A program made the position numbers and the translations under genes. The notes under the pieces are model-generated. The model was not told where the DNA came from, ran no database searches, and saw only the letters and a program-made list of their open reading frames with translations. 64,000 nucleotides of DNA from Cellulomonas gelida (lineage in GTDB: Bacteria > Actinomycetota > Actinomycetes > Actinomycetales > Cellulomonadaceae): positions 62,001 to 126,000 of the forward strand of contig NZ_BJLQ01000005.1 of NCBI RefSeq assembly GCF_006538725.1, given 5' to 3'. Position 1 is the first letter of the stretch. Each line of letters begins with the position of its first letter. Below, in pieces: positions 10,160-64,000 of this stretch.

Positions 10160-10168
10160 CGGGCCGCC

Positions 10169-11509: not shown

Positions 11510-11533
11510 CCCGTCGCGGCGGGGTGCTCGCCA

Positions 11534-11567
11534 GGGCGCGTGCTCACGCAGGGCGGGTGCTCACGCA
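11534..11567. repeat. Two tandem 17-bp copies between convergent genes
   Basis: The unit 'gggcgcgtgctcacgca' is followed directly by a copy with one mismatch, and then by more diverged partial copies up to about 11590. It fills the 82-base gap between the DUF58 and SpoIIM-like stops. No function is apparent. Confidence 0.6.
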
Positions 11568-11591
11568 GGGCGGGCTCAGCCGGGCGGGTGC

Positions 11592-12581: not shown

Positions 12582-12611
12582 GCGCTCAGCCTGCCATCCC
12601 CGCCGACCGGC

Positions 12612-12617
12612 TAGGGT
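12612..12617 (+). promoter_or_regulatory. Candidate -10 for the RDD gene
   Basis: TAGGGT lies 54 bases before the GTG start in the divergent intergenic region, predicting a short leader that contains the GAGGAGGA ribosome binding site. No clear -35 is visible. Confidence 0.35.
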
Positions 12618-12671
12618 GCGGTCGCGGCGTCGCCACGCCGCGCGAGCACCGGACGGACGACGAGGAGGACC

Positions 12672-13490: not shown

Positions 13491-13521
13491 GTCGCGCGGC
13501 TCGTCCGACGGGCGTGACGCC

Positions 13522-46154: not shown

Positions 46155-46155
46155 G

Positions 46156-47025
46156 TCAGAGGCGGACAGCGAACTCACGCTCCCTCGACATGAAGAGCAG
46201 CGACCCGGCGACCGCGGCGACCACGGCCCAGATCGCACCGGCGAGCCACACCTTGGGCTCGGGGACCTCGTTGAGCAGGGCGAGCTGCGTCCACCCGCCG
46301 ATCAGCGAGAACAGCGGGTTGCCGATGAGCATGAGGTGCGCGAATCGCTGTCCGTGGCCGCCCAGGTCGTCGATGGTCCACAGCACGGGCGACAGGTACA
46401 GCCAGATGCGCGTGAAGAACGGCAGGAAGCTCGACGTGTCCCGGAAGTAGACCTGCAAGGTGGCCATGATCGCCGCCAGGCCGAAGCTGAACACGGTGAT
46501 CATCAGCAGGAACACGACCGAGAGGAGCATCTGCAACCCCCACGGCTCGTCCGTGAACGCCTTGATCACCAGGAAGACGGGGACCGTCGGCAGGAACCGG
46601 AAGAACGCCGTGCGCACGGCAGCCAGGGGCATGAGCAGGCGCGGGAACGCCATGTTCATAATGAGTCGCCCGCCGCCGGTCACAGAGGTCGCGCCCTGCT
46701 GGAGGCCACCGGCCACGAGCTGGAACACGAACAAGCCACAGACGATGTGCGCGAGGCGGTCCACGCCGCCGCCGTTCGAGCTCAGGATCGCGACGAGCAG
46801 GTAGTAGACGAGCGCCATGAGCAGCGGGTTCAGCACAAGCCAGAGCTGGCCGAAGACGGTCTGCGTGTGCGCGGCACGGATGCCCGACCGCGAGAACTCC
46901 GCGGCGAACGGGAGCCGGTGGCGCAGGTCGCTGAAGTACGGACCGAACTTGGGCAGGCCGGCGCGGTGGGGCTCGTAGACGCGAAGCTCTCCCCTACGCG
47001 GGCGCACGGCTTCCTGGGTGGGCAT
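46156..47025 (-). CDS. Polysaccharide ABC exporter, permease subunit (Wzm/TagG type)
   Basis: 289 aa; the ATG at 47025 is used because MPTQEAVRPRRGELRVYEPH gives the normal length and upstream residues overlap the next gene. After an amphipathic N-terminus (FSDLRHRLPFAAEFSRSGIR) the segment QTVFGQLWLVLNPLLMALVY begins six transmembrane helices of the ABC-2 type. The motif QVYFRDTSSFLPFFTRIWLY is typical of Wzm/TagG. One base separates it from the ATPase gene, so they form one transporter. Confidence 0.93.
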   Translation of the reverse strand: MPTQEAVRPRRGELRVYEPHRAGLPKFGPYFSDLRHRLPFAAEFSRSGIRAAHTQTVFGQLWLVLNPLLMALVYYLLVAILSSNGGGVDRLAHIVCGLFVFQLVAGGLQQGATSVTGGGRLIMNMAFPRLLMPLAAVRTAFFRFLPTVPVFLVIKAFTDEPWGLQMLLSVVFLLMITVFSFGLAAIMATLQVYFRDTSSFLPFFTRIWLYLSPVLWTIDDLGGHGQRFAHLMLIGNPLFSLIGGWTQLALLNEVPEPKVWLAGAIWAVVAAVAGSLLFMSREREFAVRL

Positions 47026-48333: not shown

Positions 48334-49572
48334 GTGCCGCTCACCGCCCAGCCCGCCGCCCCGACGAGCAGGCACGCGCGCGGTCGGCGCGAGCGACGCG
48401 CGCTGCGTGTGGTCGCGCTCACCGCGCTCGCCGCCATGACGTTCACGGGCACGGCCGCGCTCACGTTCGTCGTGCGGCTCGACGACAACATCCACCACCT
48501 CGACCTCGACCCGCTGCTCGGCCCGCGCCCCACGGCCGCGGCGCAGGCGCAGGACCCGGCAGAGGGCCGTGCGCTCACGCTGCTGCTGCTCGGGTCGGAC
48601 TCGCGGGCCGGCAAGAACGGCACGATCGGCGGCACGGTGGCCGACAGCATGCGGTCCGACACGACGATCGTGCTGCACGTCTCCGCGGACCGCTCGCGCG
48701 TCGAGCTCGTCTCCATCCCGCGGGACTCGATGGTCGCGATCCCGCAGTGCACGACGACGAGCGGCGAGACGATCGCCGCGAGCGAGTACTCGAGGTTCAA
48801 CAAGGCGTTCGCCCTCGGCTGGGACCACGGTCAGGACCTCGAGTCGGCCGCCGCGTGCGCGTGGCGCACGGTCGAGGCGACCACGGGGGTCCTCGTCGAC
48901 GACTTCCTGCTCGTCGACTTCGTGGGGTTCCGCGACATGGTGGACGCGGTCGACGGGGTGTGGATCTGCGTCCCGCGCGACATGGACGACCGCAAGGCCA
49001 AGCTGCACGTCAAGGCCGGCTACCAGCGGTTCACAGGCCCGACCGCCCTGGCGTTCGCGCGCTCGCGCGGGTTCCAGGGCAACTACGGCATGGACACCGG
49101 GCGGATCGGCAACCAGCAGCGGCTGCTCGCCGCACTCGCCGACAAGGCGCTGTCGAGCGAGGTCCTGACGGACCTGCCCGCTCTGATGCGCCTGCTCGAC
49201 GCGGTGACGCGCTCGCTCACCACCTCGATGAGCACGACCGACCTCGCGGGGCTCGCGCGCAGCCTGCGCGACGTCCGGACCGGCGACGTCACGTTCCTGA
49301 CCATCCCCACGCTCCCGGACCCGCGTGACCCCGACAACACGCTCGTCTGGGCGGACGACGCCGCGACCGTGTGGGCCAACCTCGCGCGGGACGCACCCGC
49401 TCTGACCGGCACGGCGCAGGACCCGCAGACGCGTGACGAGCCCGGCACGAGTGCGACGTCCCGGCCGACCGGGCCAGCAGGCTCGTCGGGCACGGCGCGG
49501 CCCTCGCACGGGTCGACGAAGAAGGCGGGGCGTGAGGCGTTCACACTCGACGACGAGACCGCGTCGTGCTGA
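48334..49572 (+). CDS. LytR-CpsA-Psr (LCP) family wall-polymer ligase 1
   Basis: 412 aa, GTG start. A basic N-terminus and one transmembrane helix (about residues 27-50) place the LCP domain outside the membrane. Core motifs are LLLGSDSRAGKNG, MRSDTTIVLHVSADR, VSIPRDSMVAIP, FVGFRDMVDAVDGVWICVP, LAFARSR and RIGNQQRLLAAL; the conserved Asp and Arg residues that bind the pyrophosphate lipid are present. LCP proteins transfer undecaprenol-linked glycopolymers to peptidoglycan. A Ser/Thr/Pro-rich tail ends in KKAGREAFTLDDETASC, almost repeated in the next gene. Confidence 0.93.
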   Translation: MPLTAQPAAPTSRHARGRRERRALRVVALTALAAMTFTGTAALTFVVRLDDNIHHLDLDPLLGPRPTAAAQAQDPAEGRALTLLLLGSDSRAGKNGTIGGTVADSMRSDTTIVLHVSADRSRVELVSIPRDSMVAIPQCTTTSGETIAASEYSRFNKAFALGWDHGQDLESAAACAWRTVEATTGVLVDDFLLVDFVGFRDMVDAVDGVWICVPRDMDDRKAKLHVKAGYQRFTGPTALAFARSRGFQGNYGMDTGRIGNQQRLLAALADKALSSEVLTDLPALMRLLDAVTRSLTTSMSTTDLAGLARSLRDVRTGDVTFLTIPTLPDPRDPDNTLVWADDAATVWANLARDAPALTGTAQDPQTRDEPGTSATSRPTGPAGSSGTARPSHGSTKKAGREAFTLDDETASC

Positions 49573-49704: not shown

Positions 49705-50946
49705 GTGCCTGTCCGCCACATGTCTGCCGAGCGCCCAGCCAACGCGCGCCACGCCCGCCACCACCGCAGCGGGCGGATCCTGCAGAGCGTCGCGCTGGTG
49801 ACGGTCGCGATCCTCGCCTTCGGCGGGACCGCGGCCTACTCGGTGTACGCGCGGCTCAACGGCAACATCGACCACGTCGACGTCTCCGGCCTGCTCGGCC
49901 CGCGGCCGACGCAGACGCCCCAGGCGGGAGCCGACCCCAACGCCGGCAAGGCCGTCAACATCCTGCTGCTCGGCTCCGACTCCCGCGAGGGCGAGAACGG
50001 CGCGATCGGCGGCCGGGTCGCGGGCGGGATGCGCTCCGACACCGCGATCGTCATGCACATCTCGGCGGACCGGTCGCGCGTCGAGATGGTCTCGATCCCG
50101 CGTGACTCGCTCGTCGAGATCCCGACGTGCAAGACCACCAACGGCGACACGAGCTCCAGCGGCCGCGCGATGTTCAACGAGGCGTTCGCGCGCGGCTGGG
50201 ACAAGGGTCTCGACCTCGCCTCAGCGGCCGCCTGCACGTGGCGCACGGTCGAGGCCACGACGGGCGTCACGATCCACGACTTCGTGCTCGTCGACTTCGC
50301 GGGCTTCCAGACGATGGTCGACGCGATCGGCGGGGTGGACATGTGCATCCCGACCGACATGGACGACAAGAAGGCCCGCCTGCACGTCGAGGCCGGCAAC
50401 CGGCACCTCGACGGCAAGACCGCGCTGGCGTACGCCCGCTCGCGGCACAGCCAGGCGGGCGACGGCTCGGACATCGCGCGCATCGGCAACCAGCAGCGGC
50501 TGCTCGCCGCGATGGCGTCCCAGACGCTGTCGAAGAACGTCCTGACGGACTGGACGGACCTGCTCGGGCTGCTCAACGCCGCGACCAAGTCGGTCACGAC
50601 GTCGATGTCGACATCCGACCTCGCCGGGCTCGCCTACAGCGCTCGCGGCATCCGCACTGGCAACATCACGTTCATGACGATCCCGTGGGGCGCGGCACCC
50701 GAGAACAAGAACCGGGTCGTGTGGACGTCCGAGGCGGACGTCATCTGGTCGAACATCGCCGGCGACATCCCGATGCTCCGAGGCACCGACGACGACCGCG
50801 GCACCCAGCCGACCAAGGAACCGACGAAGGCGGCGACCAAGGGCCCGACGGCGACCGCGGACCCGTCCAAGGAGCCCACCGCCAAGGCGACCCGCAAGGC
50901 CGGTCGCGAGTCCTTCACGCTCGACGACGACACCGGCAAGTGCTGA
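49705..50946 (+). CDS. LytR-CpsA-Psr (LCP) family wall-polymer ligase 2
   Basis: 413 aa, GTG start. One transmembrane helix lies at about residues 27-50, then the LCP domain with LLLGSDSREGENG, VSIPRDSLVEIP, FAGFQTMVDAIGGVDMCIP, LAYARSR and RIGNQQRLLAAM. It is a tandem duplicate of the previous gene, with similarity through the disordered tail to RKAGRESFTLDDDTGKC at the C-terminus. Both would act at the outer membrane face in attaching polymer to the wall. The third LCP gene follows after 2 bases, so those two are co-transcribed. Confidence 0.93.
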   Translation: MPVRHMSAERPANARHARHHRSGRILQSVALVTVAILAFGGTAAYSVYARLNGNIDHVDVSGLLGPRPTQTPQAGADPNAGKAVNILLLGSDSREGENGAIGGRVAGGMRSDTAIVMHISADRSRVEMVSIPRDSLVEIPTCKTTNGDTSSSGRAMFNEAFARGWDKGLDLASAAACTWRTVEATTGVTIHDFVLVDFAGFQTMVDAIGGVDMCIPTDMDDKKARLHVEAGNRHLDGKTALAYARSRHSQAGDGSDIARIGNQQRLLAAMASQTLSKNVLTDWTDLLGLLNAATKSVTTSMSTSDLAGLAYSARGIRTGNITFMTIPWGAAPENKNRVVWTSEADVIWSNIAGDIPMLRGTDDDRGTQPTKEPTKAATKGPTATADPSKEPTAKATRKAGRESFTLDDDTGKC

Positions 50947-50948
50947 GC

Positions 50949-52409
50949 ATGGCTCGCGACGAGCCCGGCACGCCGCCCAGCTTCACCCCCGGTGGCGGCG
51001 CGTCCCGCCCCGCCGCGCGTGACGCCGTGGCCGTGGGCCGCGACGAGGCCCGCGCACCGGGCAAGCCGGCCCGTCCGGCCGGCCAGCGCACGCCCGACTC
51101 GCCGGCAGCCGAGGCGCGCACGCAGCGCGCGGCAGCCCCCGGCGCGCCGCGCCGCACGTCGTCGCCCTCGTCGTCCCGGCAGCCCACGCCGCCGCGCGCA
51201 GGGGCGACCCCGCCGTCGTTCTCCCCGGGCAGCGCGCAGCCCGCCGTGGGCGGCTCCGCACGCTCTGGCACCGCACGCTCTGGCACCGCACCTTCTGACG
51301 CTGCACGTCCCGCCACCGCACGTCCTGCCGGTCGGCCGGCCGCGGGCGCGCGCTCGGCGAGCGGGCACCCCGCCACCGGTCGCGCGGCCGGCGCTCCCCC
51401 GTCCCGCCCCGGCACCGGTCGCGGCGGACCGACGGGTCAGGGCCCCCAGGCACCCGGTGGCGCACCCCGGCGCAGGCGGCGTCTGCGAGTCACCCTCGCG
51501 GTGGTCGCGCTGCTCCTGGTCCTGGCGCTCGCGTGGCCCATCGGGCTCGTGATGTGGGCGAACGGCAAGATCCAGCACACCGAGGCACTCTCGGGCGCCG
51601 ACGGGACGCCGGGCACCACCTACCTCATCACCGGCTCGGACTCGCGCTCGGACGGCGGGGTCAAGGACGACGGCACCTCGGGCCAGCGCAGCGACACCAT
51701 CCTGCTGCTGCACGTCCCCGAAAGCGGGCCGACGGCCCTCATCTCGCTCCCCCGCGACACCTACGTCGAGATCCCCGGCAAGGGTCCCGGCAAGATCAAC
51801 GCGGCGTTCGCGTACGGCGGGGCACCGCTGCTGGTCGCGACGGTCGAGCAGCTCTCGGGCCTGACGGTGGACCATTACGCCGAGATCGGCATGGCCGGCG
51901 TCAAGCAGGTCGTCGACGCCGTCGGCGGTGTGCGTCTGTGCTACGACCACGACGTCGACGACCGCGACTCGAAGCTCAAGTGGAAGTCCGGCTGCCACAC
52001 GGTGGGCGGCACGCGGGCCCTGCAGTTCGCGCGGATGCGCAAGTCCGACCCGCTGGGCGACATCGGCCGCGCCGAGCGGCAGCGCCAGCTCGTCAAGGCG
52101 GTCCTCGCGAACGTCGACCCGCGCCAGCTCGCGCTGCACCCGAGCCGACAGGTCGCACTCGTCGACGCCGCGACCGCGACGCTCACGGTTGACGAGTCGA
52201 GCGACATCATCGACCTGGGCCGGCTCGCGCTCGCCTTCCGCGCCGCCAACAGCGACGCCGGGATCACGGGGACCCCGCCGATCGCGAGCATGGACTACCG
52301 TCCGGGCGGCGTCGGGTCGACGGTCCTGCTGGACCCCGACGAGACGCCGACGTTCTTCCGTCAGATCCGCGACGGCAAGCTCGAGCCGGGCAAGGTCGGC
52401 GGGGTCTAG
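50949..52409 (+). CDS. LytR-CpsA-Psr (LCP) family wall-polymer ligase 3
   Basis: 486 aa. The first ~180 residues are a cytoplasmic disordered region rich in Pro, Ala, Gly and Arg with imperfect RSGTA-type repeats. One transmembrane helix lies at about 181-203. The LCP domain has YLITGSDSRSDGG, QRSDTILLLHV, ISLPRDTYVEIPGKGPGKIN, AGVKQVVDAVGGVRLCYD and LQFARMRKSDPLGDIGRAER. It is of a different LCP subtype from the two upstream copies. Its stop directly abuts the stop of the convergent 190-aa gene with no gap. Confidence 0.93.
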   Translation: MARDEPGTPPSFTPGGGASRPAARDAVAVGRDEARAPGKPARPAGQRTPDSPAAEARTQRAAAPGAPRRTSSPSSSRQPTPPRAGATPPSFSPGSAQPAVGGSARSGTARSGTAPSDAARPATARPAGRPAAGARSASGHPATGRAAGAPPSRPGTGRGGPTGQGPQAPGGAPRRRRRLRVTLAVVALLLVLALAWPIGLVMWANGKIQHTEALSGADGTPGTTYLITGSDSRSDGGVKDDGTSGQRSDTILLLHVPESGPTALISLPRDTYVEIPGKGPGKINAAFAYGGAPLLVATVEQLSGLTVDHYAEIGMAGVKQVVDAVGGVRLCYDHDVDDRDSKLKWKSGCHTVGGTRALQFARMRKSDPLGDIGRAERQRQLVKAVLANVDPRQLALHPSRQVALVDAATATLTVDESSDIIDLGRLALAFRAANSDAGITGTPPIASMDYRPGGVGSTVLLDPDETPTFFRQIRDGKLEPGKVGGV

Positions 52410-52982
52410 CTAGAGCTCGAGCTGTCCCAGCAGCCGTAGCTCGTCGGGCCTGACGCCCTCGCGCAGCGCGGCGACGGATACCGGCACCACCGAGCGCACG
52501 CCGTACGCCGTGACGATCGACAGCGTCCGGTCGGCCAGGTAGTCGCCGTAGGAGTCCTGCGGGTTCACCCGCGCGTACATCGCGCGCGGCATGACGGTCT
52601 CCACGGCGTACGAGCGCGAGCGGAACGGGCCGAGCTGACCCGAGTCCACCAGGAACAGCGGCCGGAAGCGGCCGGTCGTGAGCTGGACGCGCTCGATCGC
52701 GTCGGCGACCACCTCGGTGTCGCCCGGCTCGAGACCGAGCGCGACGACGAGCACGATCGGCCAGCGCCGCCCCTGGTGCGGCAGCAGCATGTGCCCGCCG
52801 CGGATGTCGACGCGCGGCTTGCCGTGCAGGTGGCGCGACCCGCCGGCCTCGATGCCGAGCAGGGCGCGGCCGGCCTCCTTGACGCGCGGCGCGCGCCTGC
52901 CGACGGCGACGACGAGGCGCCGCGTCGCGGGAAACGCGAGCAGGCGGCGGGCGGCGCGCTGGGCGCGGCGACCGGCGCTCAT
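52410..52982 (-). CDS. Hypothetical protein coupled to a bifunctional glycosyltransferase
   Basis: 190 aa; the ATG overlaps the glycosyltransferase stop by 4 bases. A basic N-terminus ([20 protein letters not shown]) is followed by an alpha/beta region: [60 protein letters not shown] and [21 protein letters not shown] do not recognise a family. The alternating strands and helices look Rossmann-like, and coupling suggests it works with the upstream enzyme. No signal peptide or membrane segment is evident. Confidence 0.75.
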
Positions 52983-55159
52983 CGCTCGACCCCGATCAGG
53001 CGCTCGACGTGCCGGATGGCCTCGCCCGCACCGTTGGCCGGGTAGGCCGCGAGCGCCTTCGCGGAGGCCGCCGCGGACCACACGGGGTCGGTGACCCGGC
53101 GCAGCGCGTCTGCGGCGGACTGCGCGGTCACCTCGGCGACCGCGACGCTCCAGCCCTGCGCGTCGGCGTAGGTCGCGCGCGCCCCCTGGTCGTCGGTCGT
53201 CGTCGCGAGGTTCGGCACGACGACGGACGGCACACCGGCCATGAGCACCTCGTGGAAGCTGTTGTAGCCCGCCGCGACGACCGCGGCGTCGAACGCGCGC
53301 AGGTAGCGGGCGAGCGGGTAGACGGACAGCGGCTTCACGTGCTCGCGCATGGGCTCGCCGCGCCGCTGGATCGGCGGCTTGGTCGCGTAGGTCACCCAGC
53401 CGCCGGGCAGTGCCGCGGCGGCGTCCGCGAACAGGTCGAGGTCGGACGTGATGTCGTTGATGTTGCCGGCACCCAGGCTCAGCAGCAGCGCCGGCGCGTC
53501 GGGGTCCATGCCGAGCTCGGCGCGGGCCGTGGCCCGGTCGAGCAGGTCGTCCGCGTCGAGCAGGGTGATCGGGCCGACGTGCGTGCTGTCGCCACGGCCG
53601 ACGAGCGGCCCGCGGTCGGCCGCCGCGGCCACCTCGCCGGGCTCGAGGACGAGGTCGAAGATCTCGCCGCGGGCGAGGAACTTGGTCGTCGTGCCCTCGC
53701 GCCACATGCCGCGACGCGACCAGACGAACGCGATGTCCGGGAACGCGGCGCGCGTGGACACCATGCCGACGTACGGCATGGTGCCGTCGAACACGACCGC
53801 ACGCGGCCGGTACCGCCGCAGCACCTCGGCGAACCGCACCGGGAAGAGCTCGTTCCACTCCTCGACCGTGCAGCCCAGGTCCCCCCGCGACGGGCAGTAC
53901 TCCCAGGGGTGCCCGTACTGCTCGACCACGCCGACCGCCTGCGAGAGCGAGAAGAACATCGGCTCGATCCGCTCGTCGGCGCGGTTCGCCATGGCCAGCA
54001 GGCGGGTGAGGTGACCCATCCCGGCGCCGTTGCTGCTGACGAACATGACACGTTCGCGGCCGACGGGGCGCTGCCGCGACACCACCGTGCGGGGCTCGCC
54101 CGAGGGCGGCCCGATGAGCGCGGCGAGGCGCGCGGCGTGCGACTCGTGGCCGTGCGTCGAGCGGACGAACTGCTGGCCCCGCGCGGACTGCGCGAGGTAG
54201 GCGTCCGGGTCGGCCGCGAGGCGCGCCACGAGTCCCTGCACGCCCTCGGGAGCGGTGTAGAGCGCCGCGTCGCCGAACACGGAGCGGAAGTGCTCGGGCA
54301 GGATCGCCACGGCACCGCTCGCGAGCGCCTCCATGATCGTGCGGCCGTACGCCTCGACGAGGTCGCTGCGGTGGAAGTAGACGAAGAAGTCGAGCCCGGC
54401 GACGAAGTCGCGCGGGTCGCGCGCACCGAACTCCTCGACGGACCAGGACGCGGGGACGTGGCCGATCACGTCGGCCACCGCGTCGGCGCCGCCGAGCACG
54501 CGCACGCGGACCGAGCCGTCGTCGGGGTAGGCGGCGAGCAGGTCGGCGGCGCGCTCGGGCCACTTGGCCGCCGACGAGCGCGAGTGCCGGCCGATGACCG
54601 GGACGGTGCCGGGGGCGACGCCCGTGCGCGGCACCGCCCACTCGTCGACGTCGAGCAGGTTGAGCCAGTCCGTGTCGGCGAGGTCGATCTGGTCGCGCAC
54701 CGCCTCGAGCCCGGGCCGCACGGCGGGGCCGATCGGGTACCAGGTGGGCCGCACGCCGAGCCAGTCGGTCACGGCCCGGTCCGTGACAGCCACGTCGTAG
54801 TGCTGGACCCGCGCCGCGTCGACGCGCACGTGGTTGGCCAGCACGAGGGCACGGTCCGCGGTCACCGGCAGGTTCGCGGGCACGGCGTCGAACACGGTCG
54901 CGTTGCGCAGCACCGCGAGCGTCGCGTGCACGGGCGTCCCGGCGACGACGAGGTCGGCGAGGCCGTCGTCGAGGCAGCGGCGCAGGCGCGGCTCGATGCC
55001 CAGACCCCGGTTGGCCAGGCTGCTCGGCACGTGCAGGAGAGCGGTGCGGTAACCCGCCGCGGCCTGCGCGCGCAGCTCCTCGGCCATGCTGGCCGTGGTG
55101 CCGCCGGGCAGGCGCAGGTCGGACGCCAGAAGGACGTCGTAGTGCTGGGCTGTGCTCAC
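52979..55159 (-). CDS. Bifunctional glycosyltransferase: GT4-like module fused to MurG/GT28-like module
   Basis: 726 aa, GTG start after GAGAGGAC. The N-terminal module (1-365) has [54 protein letters not shown] and [18 protein letters not shown]. It matches C-terminal modules of the proteins at 56205 and 61435. The C-terminal module (370-726) starts [20 protein letters not shown], with [12 protein letters not shown] and [20 protein letters not shown], the nucleotide-sugar site typical of MurG/UgtP-like GT-B enzymes. It probably adds two sugars or couples two steps; substrates are unknown. Confidence 0.85.
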
Positions 55160-55214
55160 GACGTCCTCTCGTCGGGTCGAGGTCGCCGACGCGGCGCCCT
55201 CCGTGTGCCCGCTG

Positions 55215-55220
55215 ATTGTA
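55215..55220 (-). promoter_or_regulatory. Candidate -10 of the bifunctional glycosyltransferase operon
   Basis: Minus-strand TACAAT lies 56 bases upstream of the GTG at 55159 in the divergent region. A GACAAT on the plus strand at 55267-55272 could serve the opposite gene. Neither has a clear -35. Confidence 0.35.
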
Positions 55221-55306
55221 CGGTGGGCTGGCCTGCGCAGATTTGCCGCCCACGGGGCTGGGTACGGACAATCGCTGCGTACCCGCCCATCCGAGGAGGA
55301 CCTCCT

Positions 55307-56053
55307 GTGACGCTGCCATCCGGCGACGGGACAGCGCCCGTCGAGCTCTCGAGCACCGGGGCGACGATGACCGGCGACCTGTACCTGCGGACGCCGCCGA
55401 CGAAGCACGCGGGAGGCCAGAGCACGCGGTCGAGCAGGCTCGTGCTGGAGTCGTACACGCGCTCCAACACCGCGAACAACCGCTCGGGCGACGTCATGGA
55501 GCTGCGCTGGCGGCACCCCGCCGCGAAGGCGTTCATCGGCTGGTGGGACTACACCGACCCGGACAACCCCGTCATGAAGGCGTGGATGGGCGCGCACGAC
55601 GAGGCGAACGACGGCGGCCGGCCGCACCGCCACTTCTCCATCGAGGTGGCCAACGCCGCGGGGCTCATGAAGACGCGGCTCGCGATCCCGTACGGCGAGG
55701 ACCACGTCAACATCGCGACGTCGAGCGCCGACTTCACGGTGCATCGCGGCACGCTGCGCGTGGCGCGTTCGCGCCTCGAGTTCGCGGTCGACCGGGCCGG
55801 GGCGCCCGCGGACCAGCGTTGGTCCGTCGAGATGACCAACGCGCCGACGAACGACCTCGTCGTCTCGGCGCACGCCGACGAGACGGGCGAGCCCCGCCGG
55901 GTGCTGCGGATCAGCCGCCGCACGGCCGAGGTGCGGTTCGAGGGCGACGCGCGCTTCGCGGCGGGCCGCGGTCCGGTGCTCAAGGACAAGGTGTCCGGTG
56001 ACCTGCATCGGCTGTCCGTCGTGCGCGGCAAGCTCAGGCTGGAGAAGATCTAG
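55307..56053 (+). CDS. Phage tail-fibre-like protein of unknown function
   Basis: 248 aa, GTG start with GAGGAGGA seven bases upstream. It begins [20 protein letters not shown], a motif common at the start of phage tail-fibre or minor tail proteins. A beta-rich body follows ([47 protein letters not shown]-like strands), ending [19 protein letters not shown], reminiscent of tail-fibre C-terminal strands. No signal peptide is seen. Its stop overlaps the next GTG by one base. The assignment is motif-based and tentative. Confidence 0.65.
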
Positions 56054-56208
56054 TGGACGTCGACGCCAACGTGGTGATCACCCACCTCACGCAGAAGCTC
56101 GCCCAGCAGGAGGTCGAGCTCGCGATGCTGCGGGCCGCGCTCGACGAGGCGCTCGACCGGGCCGAGGCGGCCGAGGCGCGCCTCGCCGAGCAGGGACCGC
56201 ACGCGTGA
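56053..56208 (+). CDS. Small coiled-coil protein, 51 aa
   Basis: The GTG uses the last base of the preceding TAG stop, and the TGA overlaps the following GTG, so it is coupled on both sides. After [17 protein letters not shown] the protein is one long amphipathic helix rich in Leu, Ala and Glu ([20 protein letters not shown]) with heptad spacing. Short helical proteins of this type often follow tail genes in actinobacterial phages. It could be an oligomerisation or adaptor peptide for the neighbours. Confidence 0.65.
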
Positions 56209-58682
56209 CGGTCCCGACCCACCCGCCCGACGAGGACGTCTACCCCCGGGACTTCACGCTCCTGGACTCCCTCGACCAGCTCGCGCCGGGCTCGCGCGCC
56301 GTCGAGGCCCACGCGCTGCGCACGCGCTCGCGCTCGATGCGCGCCGTCCTGGCGCACCGCGCGACGCGCGGCCGGCTCCGCTACGAGGACCTGGTGCGCC
56401 GCCTGCGCACCGCCCCGGGCGCGCTGCCCGACGACCTCAGCCCCGGCGGCCTCGTCGCGCTCGCGCGCGTGCTCGCGCTGCAGACCGGCGAGCCGTACGA
56501 CATGGAGACCGCGCGCCTGCTGTTCGCCCAGGTCCCCGCGGGCCGCCTCAAGCCCGCCGACCGGCTCTTCTACGCCCGCCTCCTGGAGACGCTCGGCGAC
56601 GCCGCGGCCGCGTCCGAGCAGCTCGCCCTGATCCCGGCGAGCACCCCCGGACGCCAGTACCTCGAGCTCGACCTCGCCAACCCCTTCACCGGCGGCGTGC
56701 ACGCGGACGCCGCGAGGTGGCAGGCGGGCTGGGCTGAGCTGTTCACGCGCTACGGGCTCGAGGTCCCGGTCGTCGGGCCGGGCGACGACGAGCCGCTCGA
56801 CCGCCTGGTGGTCGACGCTCCCCCGGCGATCACCGACGGCCCCCTCGTCACGATCACCGTCACCACCTGGCGCCCGGGCCCCAAGCTGCTGGGGGCGCTG
56901 CGCTCGCTGGCCGACCAGTCCTGGCGCAACCTCGAGATCCTCGTGGTCGACGACTGCTCGGGCCCGGAGTACGAGGACGTGCTCGTGCGGGCCGAGTCGC
57001 TCGACCCGCGCATCCGGGTGCTGCGGCAGCCGGTCAACGGCGGCACGTACCTCGCGCGCAACGCCGCGCTCGCGGTCGCGAACGGCGAGCTCGTGACCGG
57101 GAACGACGACGACGACTGGTCCCACCCGCGGCGCATCGAGCATCAGGTCCGCGCGTTCCTCGACGACCCGACGGTCACGGCGACACGCGTCCTGGCGTAC
57201 ATGGTCACCGCCGACCTCGAGATCGACCGCATCGGCCAGCCCGTCTCGGGCCGCCATGCGGCCACGTACATGGCGCGTCGGGACACCCTGCGGCGCTGCG
57301 GCGGGTTCGTCCAGGCGCGCAAGGGTGCTGACACCGAGCTGATGCGACGGGTCGAGGCGTTCACCGGGCAGCCGGTGCGCGACATCAACGTGCCCCTGGC
57401 GCTGTACCGGCTCGACATCGCCTCGCTCTCGCGCGGCGAGTTCGGGCCGGGCTGGCACCACCCCGCGCGCGCGGCGTTCTGGGCGTCCGCGGCCCGCGCC
57501 CACGAGGTCATGGTGCGCGACGGTCTCGACCCCGCCGAGGCCGGCCGGGCCGTCGTCGTGCCCCGTCGGTACGAGCCCGTCAGGATCCGTCCCGACCGCT
57601 ACGACGTCGCGATCGCCGCGGACTGGCGCGCCAGCGACGCCGAGCGTCACCCCGTGCTCGACGAGGTCGACGCGTTGCTCGGCGCCGGCCTGCGCGTGGG
57701 GCTCGTGCACCTGCCGGACAACCGCTACCCCGTGCGGCGGCGCCTCGAGATGCACCCGACGGTGCAGGACCTCATCAACGCGCGCACCGTGGATCGTCTG
57801 CTGCTGGACGAGGACGACGTCGAGGTCGGCACGCTCGTCGTCGCCGAGGCGGGGCTCCTGCAGCTCCCGCCCGCCGAGACCTCGCTGATGACCGTGCACC
57901 GCGTCCTCGTGCTGGCGGACCAGGAGCCCGTCGACCCGGCGCACCACGTGGCGGCCTACTCGGTGCGCGACTGCACGCGCAACGCCGAGCGCATCGTCGG
58001 CCGCACGCCCGTGTGGGTGCCGCGCGACGCGCTCGTGCGCTGCTCGCTCGAGGCGCAGTCGTGGCCCGGCCTGCAGCTCGCGCCGCACGACGTCCCGATG
58101 CTCGCCGACCCGACGCGCTTCGCGGTCCCGCGTGCGCTGCCGCGCTCGTCGACCCCGGTCGTCGGTCAGCGAGCCGACGACCGTCGGGACTGGCCAGCGG
58201 AGGACGACGAGGTCCGGCGGCTCTACCCCGCGGACGGCTCGATCGACGTGCGCCTGCTCGGCTCGCCCCAGCGCGTGCGCGCCATGCTCGGGCGACGCTC
58301 CGTGCCGCCCGGGTGGCTCGTCTACGTGCGCGACGACCTGTCCGCACGCGAGTACCTCGGTCAGCTCGAGTTCTTCGTCGACCAGTCGGGGCCGCTGACG
58401 CGCATGCGCACGACCCACGCCGCCGCGCTCGCGTCGGGGGCGGTGCTCGTCGTGCCGGAGGTCTACCGGCCGGTCTATGGCGACGCGGCGGTGTACGCCG
58501 CGACGCTCGAGGTCACCGACGTGGTGCGCGGCCTGCACGCCGACCCGCAGGCGTGGCTGCTGCAGTCCCGACGCGGTCAGGCGTTCGCGCGCGAGCGGTT
58601 CTCGGTCGAGTCGTTCCTCGCGGCGCTGCGGCCGCTGCTCGACTCGAGCGTGGTGGCCGGGACGGTCGGTCAGCCGGCCTGA
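56205..58682 (+). CDS. Large GT2 glycosyltransferase with degenerate C-terminal GT4-like module
   Basis: 825 aa, GTG start overlapping the coiled-coil gene. An N-terminal helical domain spans about 1-200 (RTRSRSMRAVLAHRATRG). The GT2 domain at about 210-430 has VTITVTTWRPGPKLLGALRS, ILVVDDCSGPEYEDVL, NGGTYLARNAALAVANGELV and the metal-binding NDDDDWSHP. The C-terminal module (about 460-825) starts DVAIAADWRASDAERHPVLD and matches those at 52979 and 61435. There the GRHSR and GR-hhEALA motifs are altered to GQRADDRR and MRTTHAAALASG, so that half is probably inactive. Confidence 0.87.
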   Translation: MTVPTHPPDEDVYPRDFTLLDSLDQLAPGSRAVEAHALRTRSRSMRAVLAHRATRGRLRYEDLVRRLRTAPGALPDDLSPGGLVALARVLALQTGEPYDMETARLLFAQVPAGRLKPADRLFYARLLETLGDAAAASEQLALIPASTPGRQYLELDLANPFTGGVHADAARWQAGWAELFTRYGLEVPVVGPGDDEPLDRLVVDAPPAITDGPLVTITVTTWRPGPKLLGALRSLADQSWRNLEILVVDDCSGPEYEDVLVRAESLDPRIRVLRQPVNGGTYLARNAALAVANGELVTGNDDDDWSHPRRIEHQVRAFLDDPTVTATRVLAYMVTADLEIDRIGQPVSGRHAATYMARRDTLRRCGGFVQARKGADTELMRRVEAFTGQPVRDINVPLALYRLDIASLSRGEFGPGWHHPARAAFWASAARAHEVMVRDGLDPAEAGRAVVVPRRYEPVRIRPDRYDVAIAADWRASDAERHPVLDEVDALLGAGLRVGLVHLPDNRYPVRRRLEMHPTVQDLINARTVDRLLLDEDDVEVGTLVVAEAGLLQLPPAETSLMTVHRVLVLADQEPVDPAHHVAAYSVRDCTRNAERIVGRTPVWVPRDALVRCSLEAQSWPGLQLAPHDVPMLADPTRFAVPRALPRSSTPVVGQRADDRRDWPAEDDEVRRLYPADGSIDVRLLGSPQRVRAMLGRRSVPPGWLVYVRDDLSAREYLGQLEFFVDQSGPLTRMRTTHAAALASGAVLVVPEVYRPVYGDAAVYAATLEVTDVVRGLHADPQAWLLQSRRGQAFARERFSVESFLAALRPLLDSSVVAGTVGQPA

Positions 58683-59095
58683 CGCGTCGCGTCGCGGATC
58701 TCTGCGACCTCGGCCAGCAGCTCGGCGCGCTCGTCGGCCGAGCGCAGCCGCTCGGACTCGAGCGCGGCGACCACCCGGCGCTCGATCGCCTCGAGCCGGT
58801 GCACGAGGTTGTTCCCGGTGCGCTCCACACCGTCGGAGTCGAGGCTCTCGTCGTCGAGGAAGGCGCCCAGGCGCCCGGCGATCGCGTGCTGACGCTCCGC
58901 GGCCAGGCGCTGCATGTGCTGAGAGTCACGCGTGCGGTGCCACACGTCGACGGCGACGACCGCCACGAGCGTGACCAGCAGCGCGACCAGGGCGAGCGCC
59001 GCCTCCTCCTGCCCGACGAGGGCGAGCACGGCCGCGACGACCCCGAGCACCCCGGCCGCCGCGATGGGAAGGAGGGCCTTGACTCGTGCTCGCAC
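58670..59095 (-). CDS. Small membrane protein with coiled-coil tail
   Basis: 141 aa, GTG start. Two hydrophobic segments lie at about residues 8-27 and 31-50 (AAAGVLGVVAAVLALVGQEE, ALALVALLVTLVAVVAVDVW). A charged helical tail follows, with GNNLVHRLEAIERRVVAALE and ERAELLAEVAEIRDATRQ. The 3' end overlaps the convergent glycosyltransferase gene by 13 bases. I do not recognise a family. It could organise the glycosyltransferases at the membrane, but nothing shows this. Confidence 0.7.
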   Translation of the reverse strand: MRARVKALLPIAAAGVLGVVAAVLALVGQEEAALALVALLVTLVAVVAVDVWHRTRDSQHMQRLAAERQHAIAGRLGAFLDDESLDSDGVERTGNNLVHRLEAIERRVVAALESERLRSADERAELLAEVAEIRDATRQAG

Positions 59096-59188
59096 CGTAC
59101 TGTTCCTCTCGTCATGGGACGCGGCCCGCCGCAGGTCCGGCCGCCCGCGTCGAGGCTACCCGCCCGCGGGGCACCGGCCCGCGCCACG

Positions 59189-59194
59189 TAGAAT
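59189..59194 (+). promoter_or_regulatory. Candidate -10 of the acyltransferase gene
   Basis: TAGAAT lies 27 bases before the ATG, giving a short leader that contains the GAGGAG ribosome binding site. Confidence 0.45.
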
Positions 59195-59221
59195 GCCGCG
59201 GTCACCCGAACGAGGAGCTGC

Positions 59222-61354
59222 ATGACCGCCACGTCGACCGCCCACGTCGAGCCCCTGACCCCGCAGGGGTCCGAGGTGACGCCGGGCAAGCACCGCTCGA
59301 CCGCGTTCCGGCCCGACATCGAGGGTCTGCGCGCCGTGGCGATCGGCCTGGTGCTGATCTACCACGCAGGCGTGGACTGGGTCCCCGGCGGCTTCGTCGG
59401 CGTCGACGTGTTCTTCGTGATCTCCGGGTTCCTCATCACCTCGCTCCTGGTGCGCGAGATCGAGCGCACCGGCAAGGTCGCCCTCGCCCAGTTCTACGCG
59501 CGCCGCGCCAGGCGCCTGCTGCCCGCCGCGGCGCTCGTGCTCGTCGCGGCCGCGGTCCTGACCTGGTGGCTGCTGCCCCTGACCCAGCGACGCGTGTTCG
59601 GGCTCGACATCGTCTCGGCCGCGTTCTACGTCGTGAACTGGCGCCTGGCCGACAGGTCCGTCGACTACCTGGCCGAGGACGTCGCCGCCTCTCCCGTGCA
59701 GCACTTCTGGTCGCTCGCGGTCGAGGAGCAGTTCTACATCGTCTGGCCGCTGCTGATCATCGTCGGCCTGCTCGTGGCCCGCCGGTTCCGCCTCCCGCTG
59801 CGCCCCACGCTCGGCGTCGCGCTCGGGCTCGTCGTCGTGCCCACCCTCGGCTGGTCGATCCACCAGACCGCCACCTCGCCCACGACCGCGTTCTTCGTGA
59901 CGACCACGCGCCTGTGGGAGCTCGGGATCGGCGCGGCCGTCGCGGTCGCCTCGTTGTGGTGGAAGACGCTGTCCCGCCGCGTCGCGGCCGCGCTCGGGGT
60001 GCTCGGCGCGCTCGGGCTGGCCTACTCCGGCTTCCTGATCGACGCAGGCGACCCGTGGCCGGGTTCGCTCGCGCTCGTCCCGGTGCTGTCCACGGCGGCC
60101 TTGATCGTGGCGGGCGTGAGCGCCGCCGACACGGGCGTGAGCCGTGTGCTCGCCTGGCGCCCGTTCGTCTGGGTCGGCGGGATCTCCTACTCGCTGTACC
60201 TGTGGCACTGGCTGTTCGTCGTCGGCGGCACCGCCTACTACGGCGAGCTCGGCGCCAAGCGCGGGCTCGTGCTCGTCGCGCTGTCGTTCATCCCCGCGTG
60301 GCTCTCGCACCGGTTCGTCGAGAACCCCGTGCGCTTCTCCCCCCGCCTGACGCGCTCCAACGGGCTGTCCTTGTCACTGGGCGGGAACCTGTCGCTCGCC
60401 GCCGCGATCGCCGGCCTGGTGCTCTGCCTTCCGCTCGTGACCACGAACCCGGGCCCGAGCGCGAGCACGGACCCGACGAAGCCGTTCGGCGCGGCCGCGA
60501 TCCTCGCGGACCCCGCAGGCGCCAAGGAGCTGTGGAAGGTCGACACCGCCGCGTCGATCACCCCCAGCCCCGACCAGGCCACCGCGGACGTCCCGGACGC
60601 CTACGACAAGGGCTGCCAGGTCTCGCAGGACTCGAGCACGCCCGTCGAGTGCGTCTACGGGGACGAGAACGGCACCGAGACCGTCGCCCTCGTCGGCGAC
60701 TCCAAGGCGCTGCAGTGGATCACCGCGCTCGACGCCATCGGCAAGGACCGCGGCTGGCGGATCATCACGCACACGAAGTCGGCGTGCGCGTTCACCGCGG
60801 CCGACGTCCTCAAGGACGGCAAGCCGTACGACGCGTGCAACGAGTGGAACGACGCGGTGACCTCGATCCTGCTCGAGGAGAAGCCCTCGCTCGTCGTCAC
60901 CTCCCAGAACGCCTCCAAGGCCGCGCCCGCCGGTTCGGGCAGCAGCTCGGGCACGTCGGACGGGATGCTGTCCGGGCTCGAGGAGCGCTGGACGCAGCTG
61001 CAGGACGCCGGCATCACGGTGGCCGCGCTGACGAACAACGCCTCGCCCGGCGACGAGGTCTACGAGTGCGTCGCGCAGCACCCGGACCAGCTCTCGACCT
61101 GCGCGTTCGAGGCCGCCTACCCGACGGGTAAGGTCCAGCGGGCCGCCGCGGAGTCCGTCGGCGCGGCCGTGCTCGACCTCTCGGACGTGATCTGCCCGGG
61201 CGGGATGTGCCCGGCCGTGATCGGTGACGTCCTGGTCTACCGGCAGGGCTCGCACCTGACCCAGACCTACGTCTCGACCCTGACGGGGACGCTCGACGCG
61301 CGGCTCGTGGAGGCGGTCGCGGCGACGCCCGCCGCCGCGCTGGTCGCCGGCTGA
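59222..61354 (+). CDS. Acyltransferase-3 (OafA/YrhL-like) fused to an SGNH domain
   Basis: 710 aa. The membrane acyltransferase domain (about 28-400) begins FRPDIEGLRAVAIGLVLIYH (catalytic His in IYH) and has GGFVGVDVFFVISGFLIT, FYARRARRLLPAA and FWSLAVEEQFYIVWPLL; about ten helices are expected. An extracytoplasmic SGNH-like domain (about 455-710) has VALVGDSKALQW with the nucleophile Ser and YRQGSHLTQTYV with the His. Such proteins O-acetylate surface sugars. In the final motif the usual Asp of DxxH appears replaced by Gln. Confidence 0.92.
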   Translation: MTATSTAHVEPLTPQGSEVTPGKHRSTAFRPDIEGLRAVAIGLVLIYHAGVDWVPGGFVGVDVFFVISGFLITSLLVREIERTGKVALAQFYARRARRLLPAAALVLVAAAVLTWWLLPLTQRRVFGLDIVSAAFYVVNWRLADRSVDYLAEDVAASPVQHFWSLAVEEQFYIVWPLLIIVGLLVARRFRLPLRPTLGVALGLVVVPTLGWSIHQTATSPTTAFFVTTTRLWELGIGAAVAVASLWWKTLSRRVAAALGVLGALGLAYSGFLIDAGDPWPGSLALVPVLSTAALIVAGVSAADTGVSRVLAWRPFVWVGGISYSLYLWHWLFVVGGTAYYGELGAKRGLVLVALSFIPAWLSHRFVENPVRFSPRLTRSNGLSLSLGGNLSLAAAIAGLVLCLPLVTTNPGPSASTDPTKPFGAAAILADPAGAKELWKVDTAASITPSPDQATADVPDAYDKGCQVSQDSSTPVECVYGDENGTETVALVGDSKALQWITALDAIGKDRGWRIITHTKSACAFTAADVLKDGKPYDACNEWNDAVTSILLEEKPSLVVTSQNASKAAPAGSGSSSGTSDGMLSGLEERWTQLQDAGITVAALTNNASPGDEVYECVAQHPDQLSTCAFEAAYPTGKVQRAAAESVGAAVLDLSDVICPGGMCPAVIGDVLVYRQGSHLTQTYVSTLTGTLDARLVEAVAATPAAALVAG

Positions 61355-61434
61355 AGGAACCGGGGACCAGGCTCATGGCAGTAGATTCGCCACGTCCCGG
61401 AACTGCTCCGGGGCGATCGTTGCAGGGGGACGTC

Positions 61435-63858
61435 GTGAGCGAGGCCGGGTTCGACCGAGCAATCCTCGAGGACTACGCCGTGATCGCCCGCCGCCGCGGG
61501 CCGGCGGCGCTGGCCCGGACCGCGATGCGCACGCGGTCGCGCGCGCTGCGCGAGCTGCTGGCCTACGTCGCGAGCGAGGGCGAGCTGGACTACCGCGCGC
61601 TCGCCGACGGGCAGGAGCCCTCGGACTGGCGCTACATCTGGCTCGGTGCGCTGGCGAGGACCGTCGCGCTGCAAGAGCTCGACGACGACGACGCGACGGT
61701 GGCCGTCGCGCTGCTGCGGCGCACGCTGAAGAAGGCGCCGCGCGAGCGCAAACCCGCCTACGTCGACCTGCTCGCCGCTCTCCTGTTCGACGCGGGCGAC
61801 TACGCGGGGGCCGCGGACGCGCTGGCGTCGTACCCGATGTCCGAGGGCCACGCACGCGCCCTGCGGACCGACCTCGCCAACCCGTACGTCGGTTCGCCCT
61901 TCGCCGACGAGCACGCCTGGCGCGAGCTCTTCGACAGCTACTTCACCGAAGGCGAGATCCCCGCTCCGGCCATCCGCCCCGGCGCCCCGACACCGTTCGA
62001 CGGCCTGGCTCTCGACGTGCCCGCGGTCGACGGCACGCAGCCGCTCGTGTCCGTCATCATGACGACCTTCCAGCCCGACGCGGTGACGCTGCGGACGAGC
62101 GTCGAGTCGATCCTGCGGCAGAGCTGGCGCAACCTTGAGCTGGTCATCGTCGACGACTGCTCGCCTGGCGACGGCTGGTCCGTCGTCGAGAGCATCGCCG
62201 CGCTCGACGACCGCATCCGCGCGGTCCGGATGCCGCAGAACGGTGGCACGTACGTCGCGCGCAACGCCGCGCTCGACCTGGTGCGCGGCGAGTTCCTCAC
62301 CGGTCAGGACGACGACGACTGGTCGCACCCGCAGCGGATCGCGCTCCAGATGCAGCCGATGCTGGACGACCCGACGCTCGCGGCGTCGCAGAGCAAGTGC
62401 CTGCGCCTGCAGGAGAACTTCAGGCTCCAGAAGCCCGAGTACGACCCGTCGCGCCTCAACGAGTCCTCGATCCTCCTCCGTCGCACCGTCGCCGAGCGGC
62501 TCGGCTACTACGCCGCGTCGCGCAGAGGTGCCGACAGCGAGTACCGCCACCGTCTGATCGCCATGACCGGCGAACCGGTGCACCTCGTCGAGAAGCACCT
62601 CTCGCTCGTCCGCTGGCGGGGCTCGTCCCTCTCCCGGACGGACTTCAAGCCCAACTGGCGGCACCCCTCGCGACACGAGTGGATCGGCGAGTTCCGGCAC
62701 TGGCACGCGACGGCCACACCCGACGAGCTGCGCCTCGGCCGCGACCAGACCGACGAGCGGCTCGCCCTGCCCGAGCGCTTCGCGGTGAACCCCCGTGCGC
62801 GCGAGCTCGACGTCGTGATCGCCGGCGACTGGCGGGCGTACGGCGGCCCGCAGAGGTCGATGATCGAGGAGATCATGGCGCTCACGGCCGCGGGGCGCGC
62901 AGTCGGGGTCATGCACCTCGAGGCCGCCCGGTTCATGACCGCGCGGGACATGCCGCTGTGCGGGCCGGTCCGTGACCTGATCCACCGTCAGGTGGTCGCC
63001 CGGGTGCTCGAGACCGACGAGGATCACGCGAGGCTGCTCTCGTTGCGCTACCCCCCGATCCTGCAGTTCCCGCCGGTGGACCCGGTGGCTCTTCGGGCCG
63101 ACCGCGTGATCCTCATGGCGAACCAGGCGCCGTCCGAGCGTGACGGGAGCGACATCCGGTATCGCGTCGCGGACGTCACGCGGCACGCGCGCCTCATGTT
63201 CGGTCGCGAGCCCCTGTGGGTCCCGCAGGGTCCGACGGTGCGCCAGGCGATCGAGGGCGACGTCGAACCCGGTCAGCTCGCCGACTTCGACCTTCCCGGC
63301 ACGCTGGACCTGCCCGAGTGGGAGACGGAGCGCAGCACGTTCCGCTCCACCCGACCCGTCGTCGGCCGGCACTCGCGCGACGACCTCATGAAGTGGCCGG
63401 TCGACAGCCGCGCGCTCAAGGCCGCGTACCCGTTCGACGGCGAGGTCGAGGTCCGCGTCATGGGAGGCACGCGCGCCGTGCAGGAGATCCTCGGGGCGCC
63501 CGCGCCGACGTCCTGGCTCACGTTCGCGGCCGACGAGCTCCCGGTCCGGACGTTCCTCAACTCGATCGACTTCTTCGTCTACCACCAGCACCCGCAGGCG
63601 TACGACGCCTTCGGCCGTGCGGTGCTCGAGGCGCTCGCCACCGGCTGCGTCGCGATCCTGCCGAAGGTCATGCAGGCGACCTTCGGCGACGCAGCCCTCT
63701 ACGCGACGCCCGAGCAGACGATGCCGCTCGTCCGCCGGTACTACGCCGACCCGGCTCGCTACCGTGCGCAGTCGGCGCTGGCGGTGCGACGGGTGCGCGA
63801 GCGGTTCAGCCGCGAGAGCTACGCGGCGCAGGTCGCCGCGCTGCTCGGCGAGTCCTGA
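61435..63858 (+). CDS. Large GT2 glycosyltransferase with C-terminal GT4-like module
   Basis: 807 aa from the GTG at 61435, preceded by AGGGGGAC; an ATG 60 bases earlier is possible but lacks a clear ribosome binding site. An N-terminal helical domain spans about 1-190. The GT2 domain (about 200-430) has LVSVIMTTFQPDAVTLRTSV, LVIVDDCSPGDGWSVV, NGGTYVARNAALDLVRGEFL and QDDDDWSHP. The C-terminal module (about 457-807) has DVVIAGDWRAYGGPQRSMIE, VVGRHSRDDLMKWP, SIDFFVYHQHPQAYDAFGRA and VLEALATGCVAILPK. Unlike its paralogue at 56205, the second module keeps the expected motifs, so two active sites are possible. Confidence 0.88.
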   Translation: MSEAGFDRAILEDYAVIARRRGPAALARTAMRTRSRALRELLAYVASEGELDYRALADGQEPSDWRYIWLGALARTVALQELDDDDATVAVALLRRTLKKAPRERKPAYVDLLAALLFDAGDYAGAADALASYPMSEGHARALRTDLANPYVGSPFADEHAWRELFDSYFTEGEIPAPAIRPGAPTPFDGLALDVPAVDGTQPLVSVIMTTFQPDAVTLRTSVESILRQSWRNLELVIVDDCSPGDGWSVVESIAALDDRIRAVRMPQNGGTYVARNAALDLVRGEFLTGQDDDDWSHPQRIALQMQPMLDDPTLAASQSKCLRLQENFRLQKPEYDPSRLNESSILLRRTVAERLGYYAASRRGADSEYRHRLIAMTGEPVHLVEKHLSLVRWRGSSLSRTDFKPNWRHPSRHEWIGEFRHWHATATPDELRLGRDQTDERLALPERFAVNPRARELDVVIAGDWRAYGGPQRSMIEEIMALTAAGRAVGVMHLEAARFMTARDMPLCGPVRDLIHRQVVARVLETDEDHARLLSLRYPPILQFPPVDPVALRADRVILMANQAPSERDGSDIRYRVADVTRHARLMFGREPLWVPQGPTVRQAIEGDVEPGQLADFDLPGTLDLPEWETERSTFRSTRPVVGRHSRDDLMKWPVDSRALKAAYPFDGEVEVRVMGGTRAVQEILGAPAPTSWLTFAADELPVRTFLNSIDFFVYHQHPQAYDAFGRAVLEALATGCVAILPKVMQATFGDAALYATPEQTMPLVRRYYADPARYRAQSALAVRRVRERFSRESYAAQVAALLGES

Positions 63859-63867
63859 CGCGCGGAC

Positions 63868-64000
63868 CTACCGGGCCGGTCGGCGCAGGACGGCGAGCCG
63901 CGACACACCGGTCTCGATCCGCTCCAGGCCGAACTCCTCGGCCCACTCCTGCGCGATCGCGGCCTCGTCCGGTCGATCCGAGTCGTCGAGCAGCACGAGG
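63868..64000 (-). CDS. C-terminal end of a gene cut by the window edge
   Basis: The last 43 codons of a minus-strand gene are visible, ending LERIETGVSRLAVLRRPAR before TAG. The visible part begins LVLLDDSDRPDEAAIAQEW, which is compatible with the end of a class I SAM-dependent methyltransferase, but too little is present for a firm assignment. It converges with the 807-aa glycosyltransferase, 9 bases apart. Confidence 0.55.
   Translation of the reverse strand, partial: LVLLDDSDRPDEAAIAQEWAEEFGLERIETGVSRLAVLRRPAR

Follow-up and report, generated by a model that had tools for sequence, protein, structure and literature searches.

How many functions can one glycosyltransferase module serve within a single locus? 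The question is raised by a stretch of 64,000 nucleotides from Cellulomonas gelida (contig NZ_BJLQ01000005.1, positions 62,001 to 126,000 of the forward strand; hereafter the window, numbered from its first letter), in which three glycosyltransferase genes share a domain of about 355 residues. This module is a discrete GT-B, GT4-like family, and its catalytic letters have been lost selectively in proteins that fuse it to a GT2 domain; the selective loss of the active site is a stronger finding than the shared module itself. The three genes, which codon-position G+C supports as coding (for P0003 an in-frame alternative start 15 bases upstream scored best), are as follows.

52979-55159, minus strand: P0001, 726 residues; MU architecture, a GT4-like module at about 4-350 with its catalytic letters present, then a GT1/GT28-like GT-B domain at about 366-726.
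56205-58682, plus strand: P0002, 825 residues; GM architecture, a helical N-terminus, a GT2 domain and a GT4-like module at about 466-812 in which all four catalytic letters are missing.
61435-63858, plus strand: P0003, 807 residues; GM architecture, a helical N-terminus, a GT2 domain and a GT4-like module at about 455-805 with its catalytic letters present.

As the original prediction held, all three genes stand at these places, the module is N-terminal in P0001 and C-terminal in P0002 and P0003, and the motifs quoted for it are present. Pairwise identities of the three modules in the family alignment are 38, 34 and 33%. By BLASTP, P0001 matches P0003 at 38% over 353 residues (E 1e-57; residues 4-350 of P0001 aligned) and P0002 at 34% over 351 residues (E 5e-35), while P0002 and P0003 align over their full length (36% over 798 residues, E 1e-136). 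Since the latter two are alike outside the module as well, the window holds two architectures, GM and MU. Thus, the earlier description of one module "shuffled into three giant enzymes" was too strong: P0002 and P0003 are whole-length paralogues, whose full-length alignment rules out three separate shufflings, only P0001 represents a second architecture, and sizes of 726-825 residues do not fit the word "giant". The partner domains had been named as GT2 in two proteins, which is correct, and as MurG-like in the third, which is right for a MurG/GT1-like GT-B domain but not for MurG itself. The P0001 C-terminus is ruled out as MurG by its TIGR01133 score (15.7 vs 250.25 bits) and by a better fold match to the GT1 enzyme GtfD (Z 30.0 over 329 residues) than to MurG (Z 25.8 over 310); its match to the GT28 C-terminal model PF04101 is borderline, at 22.0 bits for a cut-off of 22.0.

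Could the shared module be generic GT4 similarity? In the organism's own genome, the module profile matches 3 of 39 scored candidate frames, all three inside the window, and the GT4 profile PF00534 matches 14 places. Across 394 genomes of the class, with at most five candidates scored per genome, family members reach at least 171 bits and occur in 28 genomes, while the next match below them, from G217, contains an internal stop and scores 64 bits, followed by 46 and lower. Generic similarity is thereby ruled out: the family is clearly closer to itself than to other GT4 proteins, in its own genome and in the 394. Because of the gap between 171 and 64 bits, the tally of 236 of 394 genomes matching the profile at E<=0.001 must be mostly generic GT4. 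Pfam models of GT4 type stay below cut-off on the window modules (16.0 vs 25 bits for P0001, 15.4 vs 27 for P0003), and none is listed for P0002. A profile built from intact modules reaches BshA (E 0.002), aligning the E-x-F-G-x4-E stretch, the GT4 signature; this E-x7-E motif goes with the R/K of the donor site. In the predicted P0002 structure, the module resembles the GT4 folds of TarM (Z 23.0 over 321 residues) and BshA (Z 22.7 over 313); in the P0001 search the GT1-like half filled the match list, so that its module was barely probed.

Within the genus only 4 of 40 genomes match the module, one of them at no better than E 3.7e-4, so the locus is patchy. A scan of species genomes found 71 loci with the module, including Cellulomonas persica, Actinoplanes and relatives, Jiangella, Glycomyces, Nocardiopsis, Nesterenkonia, Isoptericola, Oerskovia, Corynebacterium and a few Proteobacteria. 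Outside the window, the module also occurs unfused or in other fusions. On a first tree a single branch separates the MU modules from the rest (1 change; Shimodaira-Hasegawa-like approximate likelihood-ratio support, SH-aLRT, 83); on a denser tree they need 3 changes, because modules with another tail of 400 residues (L125, L130, L131, L133, L134) fall inside. None of these tails matches a one-sequence profile of the P0001 tail, and the two that were scanned (L125 and L134) contain no domain at E<=0.05. In a third architecture, an intact module is C-terminal behind membrane or unknown N-terminal parts (L040, L064, L065, L113, L115, L116; from Glycomyces, Nocardiopsis and others). GM frames of the Nesterenkonia group (L063:6968-11056, L071:6971-11059, L088:7532-11062, L086:3524-7048) are 1175-1363 codons long, with 340-550 extra codons ahead of the GT2 region, in which no Pfam domain was found in the two frames scanned.

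The three window modules differ at the residues that matter. P0001 and P0003 keep the R/K and E-x7-E letters, whereas the P0002 module lacks all four (R, K, E, E): it has GQRADDRRDWP in place of the GRHSRxxxxKWP of intact modules, and RMRTTHAAA where P0001 reads EAYGRTIME. This pattern extends to the family. Among 158 distinct modules (173 before copies were removed; near-copies stay), alignment-free pattern searches found 105 that carry both motifs, 53 that carry neither and none with just one. Intact modules make up 43/43 of the MU proteins, 22/23 of other proteins and 40/92 of the GM proteins, so that GT2 fusions account for 52 of the 53 modules that have neither motif; the sole lost module in the "other" class, L141_18773, is cut by the end of its locus. 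The association of loss with architecture gives p 5e-15 by Fisher's test, on rows that are related by descent, and 1e-11 after thinning to less than 85% identity, which leaves 116 rows (in GM proteins 43 modules are lost and 28 intact, in all others 1 is lost and 44 are intact). These counts exclude modules that score below 100 bits or cover fewer than 200 profile positions; among those excluded are L030_7706, L068_5589, L020, fragments in L087 and L091, and L069_15202, an MU protein with a lost module that falls under the score cut and thus outside the 43/43. The state of L017 differed between two alignments, and G021 has one lost module and another that is too diverged for scoring. Of the 52 lost GM modules, 8 retain none of the four letters.

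The GT2 half mostly keeps its motifs. PF00535 stands far over its cut-off of 23.3 bits in both P0002 (80.7 bits, residues 219-339) and P0003 (84.2 bits, 206-334), both of which carry the DD and DxD motifs of GT2. All three GT2 motifs are retained in 83 of 89 evaluable GM proteins, a count that leaves aside three cut at locus ends (L094, L117_2, L118_2565). In three of the exceptions the GT2 motifs are lost and the module kept (L038_8504, L039_8675, L048), and in the other three both are lost (L069_7755, L083_9137, L087_11321). Two cases stand out. In Isoptericola (L038/L039; in L039 at 8675-11068 and 11031-13664), two neighbouring GM paralogues have lost opposite domains, and in each the lost domain is the faster-evolving half: the ratio of nonsynonymous to synonymous substitution rates (dN/dS) is 0.330 for GT2 vs 0.085 for the intact module in the GT2-lost protein, and 0.216 for the module vs 0.065 for the intact GT2 in the module-lost protein. 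In a Lysobacteraceae bacterium (L042:5912-11080), a single frame of 1723 codons contains two GM units in tandem, the first with a lost module and the second with an intact one.

Are the lost modules decaying relics without function? We consider this very improbable. In its favour, the lost module evolves faster than its own GT2 half in 7 of 9 pairs, not all of them independent. Yet dN/dS is well under 1 in all nine lost-module pairs (0.148-0.389; eight intact-module pairs give 0.085-0.442, and pairs share members), so the lost modules are under purifying selection; they also persist at full length in several families. In addition, AlphaFold models the whole P0002 chain with confidence (mean predicted local distance difference test score, pLDDT, 92.7; predicted template modelling score, pTM, 0.92), from an input of 68 of 72 listed sequences, four near relatives having been omitted by hand, and the model suggests that the lost module packs against the GT2 domain to form a single body. 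For P0001 the corresponding values are 88.8 and 0.61, with the two halves loosely placed.

The same purifying selection would also be expected if the lost modules were altered rather than dead, binding another donor or acceptor, so that GM proteins were two working enzymes throughout. Both glutamate positions are indeed kept in 19 of the 52 lost GM modules. However, P0002 has none of the four letters, and the disappearance of both motifs together in all 53 lost modules seems to fit loss of a site better than its retuning. We therefore regard altered specificity as improbable, if less so than decay.

What, then, might these proteins do? The explanation we favour, at somewhat better than even chances, is cytoplasmic assembly of a glycan by GT2 catalysts, with the fused GT4-like domain often kept as a scaffold and a methyltransferase partner at the membrane. 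P0001, P0002 and P0003 would be the cytoplasmic assembly enzymes of a cell-surface glycan. The GT2 domain would be the constant catalyst of P0002 and P0003; the fused module would act as a second transferase in P0003 and as a non-catalytic folded scaffold in P0002; and P0001 would contribute a further GT4-like activity and a predicted GT1/GT28-like one. The partner, with two transmembrane (TM) segments, probably tethers a GM protein to the membrane and may cap the chain, which the nearby ATP-binding cassette (ABC) transporter would export and LytR-CpsA-Psr (LCP) ligases attach. The surface-glycan role is proposed because LCP genes, ABC exporters, uridine diphosphate (UDP)-sugar dehydrogenases and a 2-epimerase occur at the locus, which carries UDP-GlcNAc 2-epimerase and UDP-sugar dehydrogenase genes in addition to the following.

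45075-47025, minus strand: ABC exporter pair, an ATPase (45075-46154) and an ABC-2-type permease (46156-47025) slightly under the Pfam cut-off.
48409-49572, 49705-50946 and 51501-52409, plus strand: three LCP genes, PF03816 well above cut-off in each.
52410-52982, minus strand: P0004-type gene that shares 4 bases with the end of P0001; it has no Pfam match, and 2 other loci contain relatives at E<=1e-8.
58670-59050, minus strand: 126-residue membrane gene, convergent with P0002 with a 13-base overlap of ends; no match in the Pfam scan, but similar in sequence to the TM/coil region of the partner methyltransferase (E 3.9e-11).
59222-61354, plus strand: acyltransferase with acyltransferase 3 (AT3) and SGNH parts, encoded between P0002 and P0003; 26 other loci hold relatives.
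63868-64000, minus strand: 3' end of the methyltransferase partner gene (whole gene C5:125868-127013 on the same contig, 381 residues), convergent with P0003 across a 9-base gap.

Multi-sugar assembly, as originally predicted, is hence the likeliest role, given this surface-glycan locus with its LCP and ABC exporter genes and the conserved gene set described below, but not all modules can be counted as working enzymes, since that of P0002 lacks R, K, E and E.

The partner consists of two N-terminal TM segments, a coil-like middle and a C-terminal Methyltransf_24 domain (45.1 bits), the sole domain listed at E<=0.5, with no kinase domain; the copy cut at the end of L011 gave no methyltransferase match, and the whole gene did. 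Partner-like genes accompany the module at 39 of 123 loci that carry it, a count that takes loci of one genome apart and includes many too short to show the gene; 36 of the matches cover at least 200 model positions. Among loci longer than 15 kb, they are present at 28 of 61 with GM and 15 of 20 with MU. Moreover, a short TM-led gene follows 55 of 81 GM genes, compared with 206 of 942 for all genes at these loci, a background that includes the GM followers; two GM genes can share one neighbour. In Glycomyces, a TM protein of about 110 residues follows GM and is itself followed by an ABC ATPase. P0001, P0002 and P0003 have no TM segments by hydropathy; with TM-led neighbours and a partner with TM segments at hand, recruitment of GM proteins to the membrane is thus a reasonable inference.

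A related gene set, the gsf cluster (AMIS_70380-70480), has been studied genetically in Actinoplanes missouriensis (PMC13390465). It comprises, in order, Stealth, UDP-sugar dehydrogenase, GtrA, GT2, 11-TM and domain-free proteins, then GT28_C, GT2 (205-317), acyltransferase 3, a two-TM methyltransferase and GT2 (214-324). When the entire cluster was deleted, sporangia were smaller and spores immature, and complementation was not possible (PMC13390465). The L035 locus of A. rectilineatus has the same gene types in the same order, with GT2 at 205-322 and 215-338 and GT28_C present; its 11-TM and domain-free genes are matched by position only, with a hydropathy count of 8 segments. The window, taken together with L142, shares with gsf an MU gene, two GM genes, AT3 and a two-TM methyltransferase side by side, a likeness drawn from the paper's gene description and L035. 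The module is not mentioned in the accessible part of the gsf study, whose authors take three cytoplasmic transferases to mean three sugars and name GT2 and GT28_C only in that text (PMC13390465). L035 contains two lost GT4-like modules, and judging by sequence we expect its set to add four sugars, through two GT2 domains, one GT4-like and one GT28-like domain.

The gsf authors propose a different outcome, namely that a short lipid-linked unit is added to another polymer by way of a GtrA-type flippase. For the window, such decoration is unlikely in our view, although it is the strongest competitor to the assembly model. The GtrA, membrane GT2 and 11-TM proteins of gsf (PMC13390465), in the same order in L035, speak for it, as does a GtrA gene about 11 kb past the window end (L011:11075-11656). 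GtrA sits inside gsf; none is known inside the Cellulomonas window. On the other hand, ABC exporters stand near GM genes in Cellulomonas and Glycomyces loci, and the gsf authors term their own model hypothetical (PMC13390465). In the assembly model, the product of the window would be a polymer and not a short oligosaccharide.

Several observations weigh against assembly with a selectively silenced scaffold. Parsimony on two trees explains the loss by 3 and 2 changes of state, so that the strong count reflects few events, and long branches may group lost modules falsely. Since 19 of 52 lost modules keep both glutamates, some are less surely dead than P0002. In G051, G074 and G285 the family-level matches that were read (2, 2 and 3) are all lost; therefore, not every lost module has an intact partner module beside it in the genome. 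The dN/dS ranges of lost and intact modules overlap. The partner's coil is weakly supported, the coil test giving 3/500 and 0/500 shuffles in two proteins and 18-229/500 in the seven others tested. Furthermore, the Actinoplanes gsf has GtrA and not an ABC exporter in its described gene order (PMC13390465), and the export route may therefore differ.

Known polymerases offer parallels to the assembly model. The best PDB sequence match of P0003 is heparosan synthase 2 (PmHS2; E 3.6e-20), which is also a fold match of the P0002 GT2 part (Z 23.8 over 261 residues, root-mean-square deviation 2.4). This likeness covers the GT2 part only: the other PmHS2 domain, a GT45, has no match to the module in the fold lists. 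In the animal protein EXTL3, the GT47 domain, a GT-B, has no bound UDP and was judged inactive (PMC9178029); like GM proteins with lost modules, EXTL3 and the exostosins are two-domain transferases that keep an inactive GT-B beside a working GT-A-type domain, but exostosin domains are animal GT47/GT64, whereas the window module is GT4-like. Likewise, the chondroitin synthases CHSY/CHPF are paralogous two-domain proteins of which one lacks catalytic residues; CHPF has lost those of both sites and keeps a structural role (PMC12748766), unlike P0002, which retains its GT2 motifs. As to the processive assembly raised in the original prediction, a distributive mechanism has been put forward for such animal polymerases in which domains are lost (PMC12748766, PMC9178029). 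Among bacteria, Klebsiella and E. coli have multi-domain O-antigen polymerases that depend on ABC export and work with coiled-coil methyltransferase terminators (WbdA/WbdD, WbbM; PMC11231755; see also PMC3482155), which resemble the window in combining multi-domain cytoplasmic transferases, an ABC exporter and a membrane-linked methyltransferase. The window partner differs from WbdD in having N-terminal TM segments, a C-terminal methyltransferase and no kinase domain found; by analogy it might act as a ruler. In working principle the window system would resemble both the animal polymerases of heparan and chondroitin and the ABC-dependent ones, and the sequence tests assign it to neither group.

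Among the open-access papers listed, none offered a bacterial precedent for retained inactive domains. We put forward, quite tentatively, that bacteria, independently of animals, built polysaccharide polymerases from paralogous two-domain transferases with selectively silenced sites, of which the reciprocal Isoptericola pair and the Lysobacteraceae tandem would be the extremes, and in which the GT4-like domain became an obligate scaffold coupling GT2 to its partners and to a chain-limiting membrane methyltransferase. The single functional study that came to light models gsf-type clusters from GT2 and GT28 alone, as far as its accessible text goes (PMC13390465). With the module acting as a transferase in intact copies and as a non-catalytic part in others, the predicted sugar unit therefore changes. 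Intact, lost and reciprocally lost copies make up a bacterial system for studying the retention of dead domains in two-domain polymerases; the same problem has been raised for animal EXTL3 (PMC9178029). Its proteins have 700-830 residues, come from soil bacteria and are TM-free in the window, and a comparison of dN/dS between the halves of a protein may reveal which half still works.

P0003 appears to be the variable member of the set. The window and C. persica share 84-86% DNA identity up to position 61335, just ahead of P0003. The P0003 protein is then 54% identical overall (44% in the N-terminal and GT2 half, 68% in the module), and the product of the gene after it (C5:125868-127013) 59%. 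Divergence from C. persica at four-fold sites is 0.49 for P0003, 0.35 for P0001 and 0.39 for P0002, and that between the paralogues P0002 and P0003 is 0.45; with four-fold sites as diverged as those of old paralogues, the dN/dS of P0003 against C. persica was not taken as selection. Thus, from sequence divergence, P0003 and its neighbour look like a divergent, perhaps exchanged, allele, and the allele present may set the type of glycan.

Other genes of the region complete the picture. P0005 (55307-56053), 248 residues between the MU and GM genes, has no Pfam match, and among other loci a relative at E<=1e-8 only in C. persica. Elsewhere, at 29564-34224, a UDP-GlcNAc 2-epimerase gene lies next to genes for SpoIID and amidase proteins that carry CWB2 cell-wall-binding repeats. 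Past the window end on the same contig, L011:3016-9232 holds a second set of UDP-sugar dehydrogenase, ABC-2 permease and ABC ATPase, after which come a glycosyltransferase-like gene and one related to the AT3/SGNH gene of the window.

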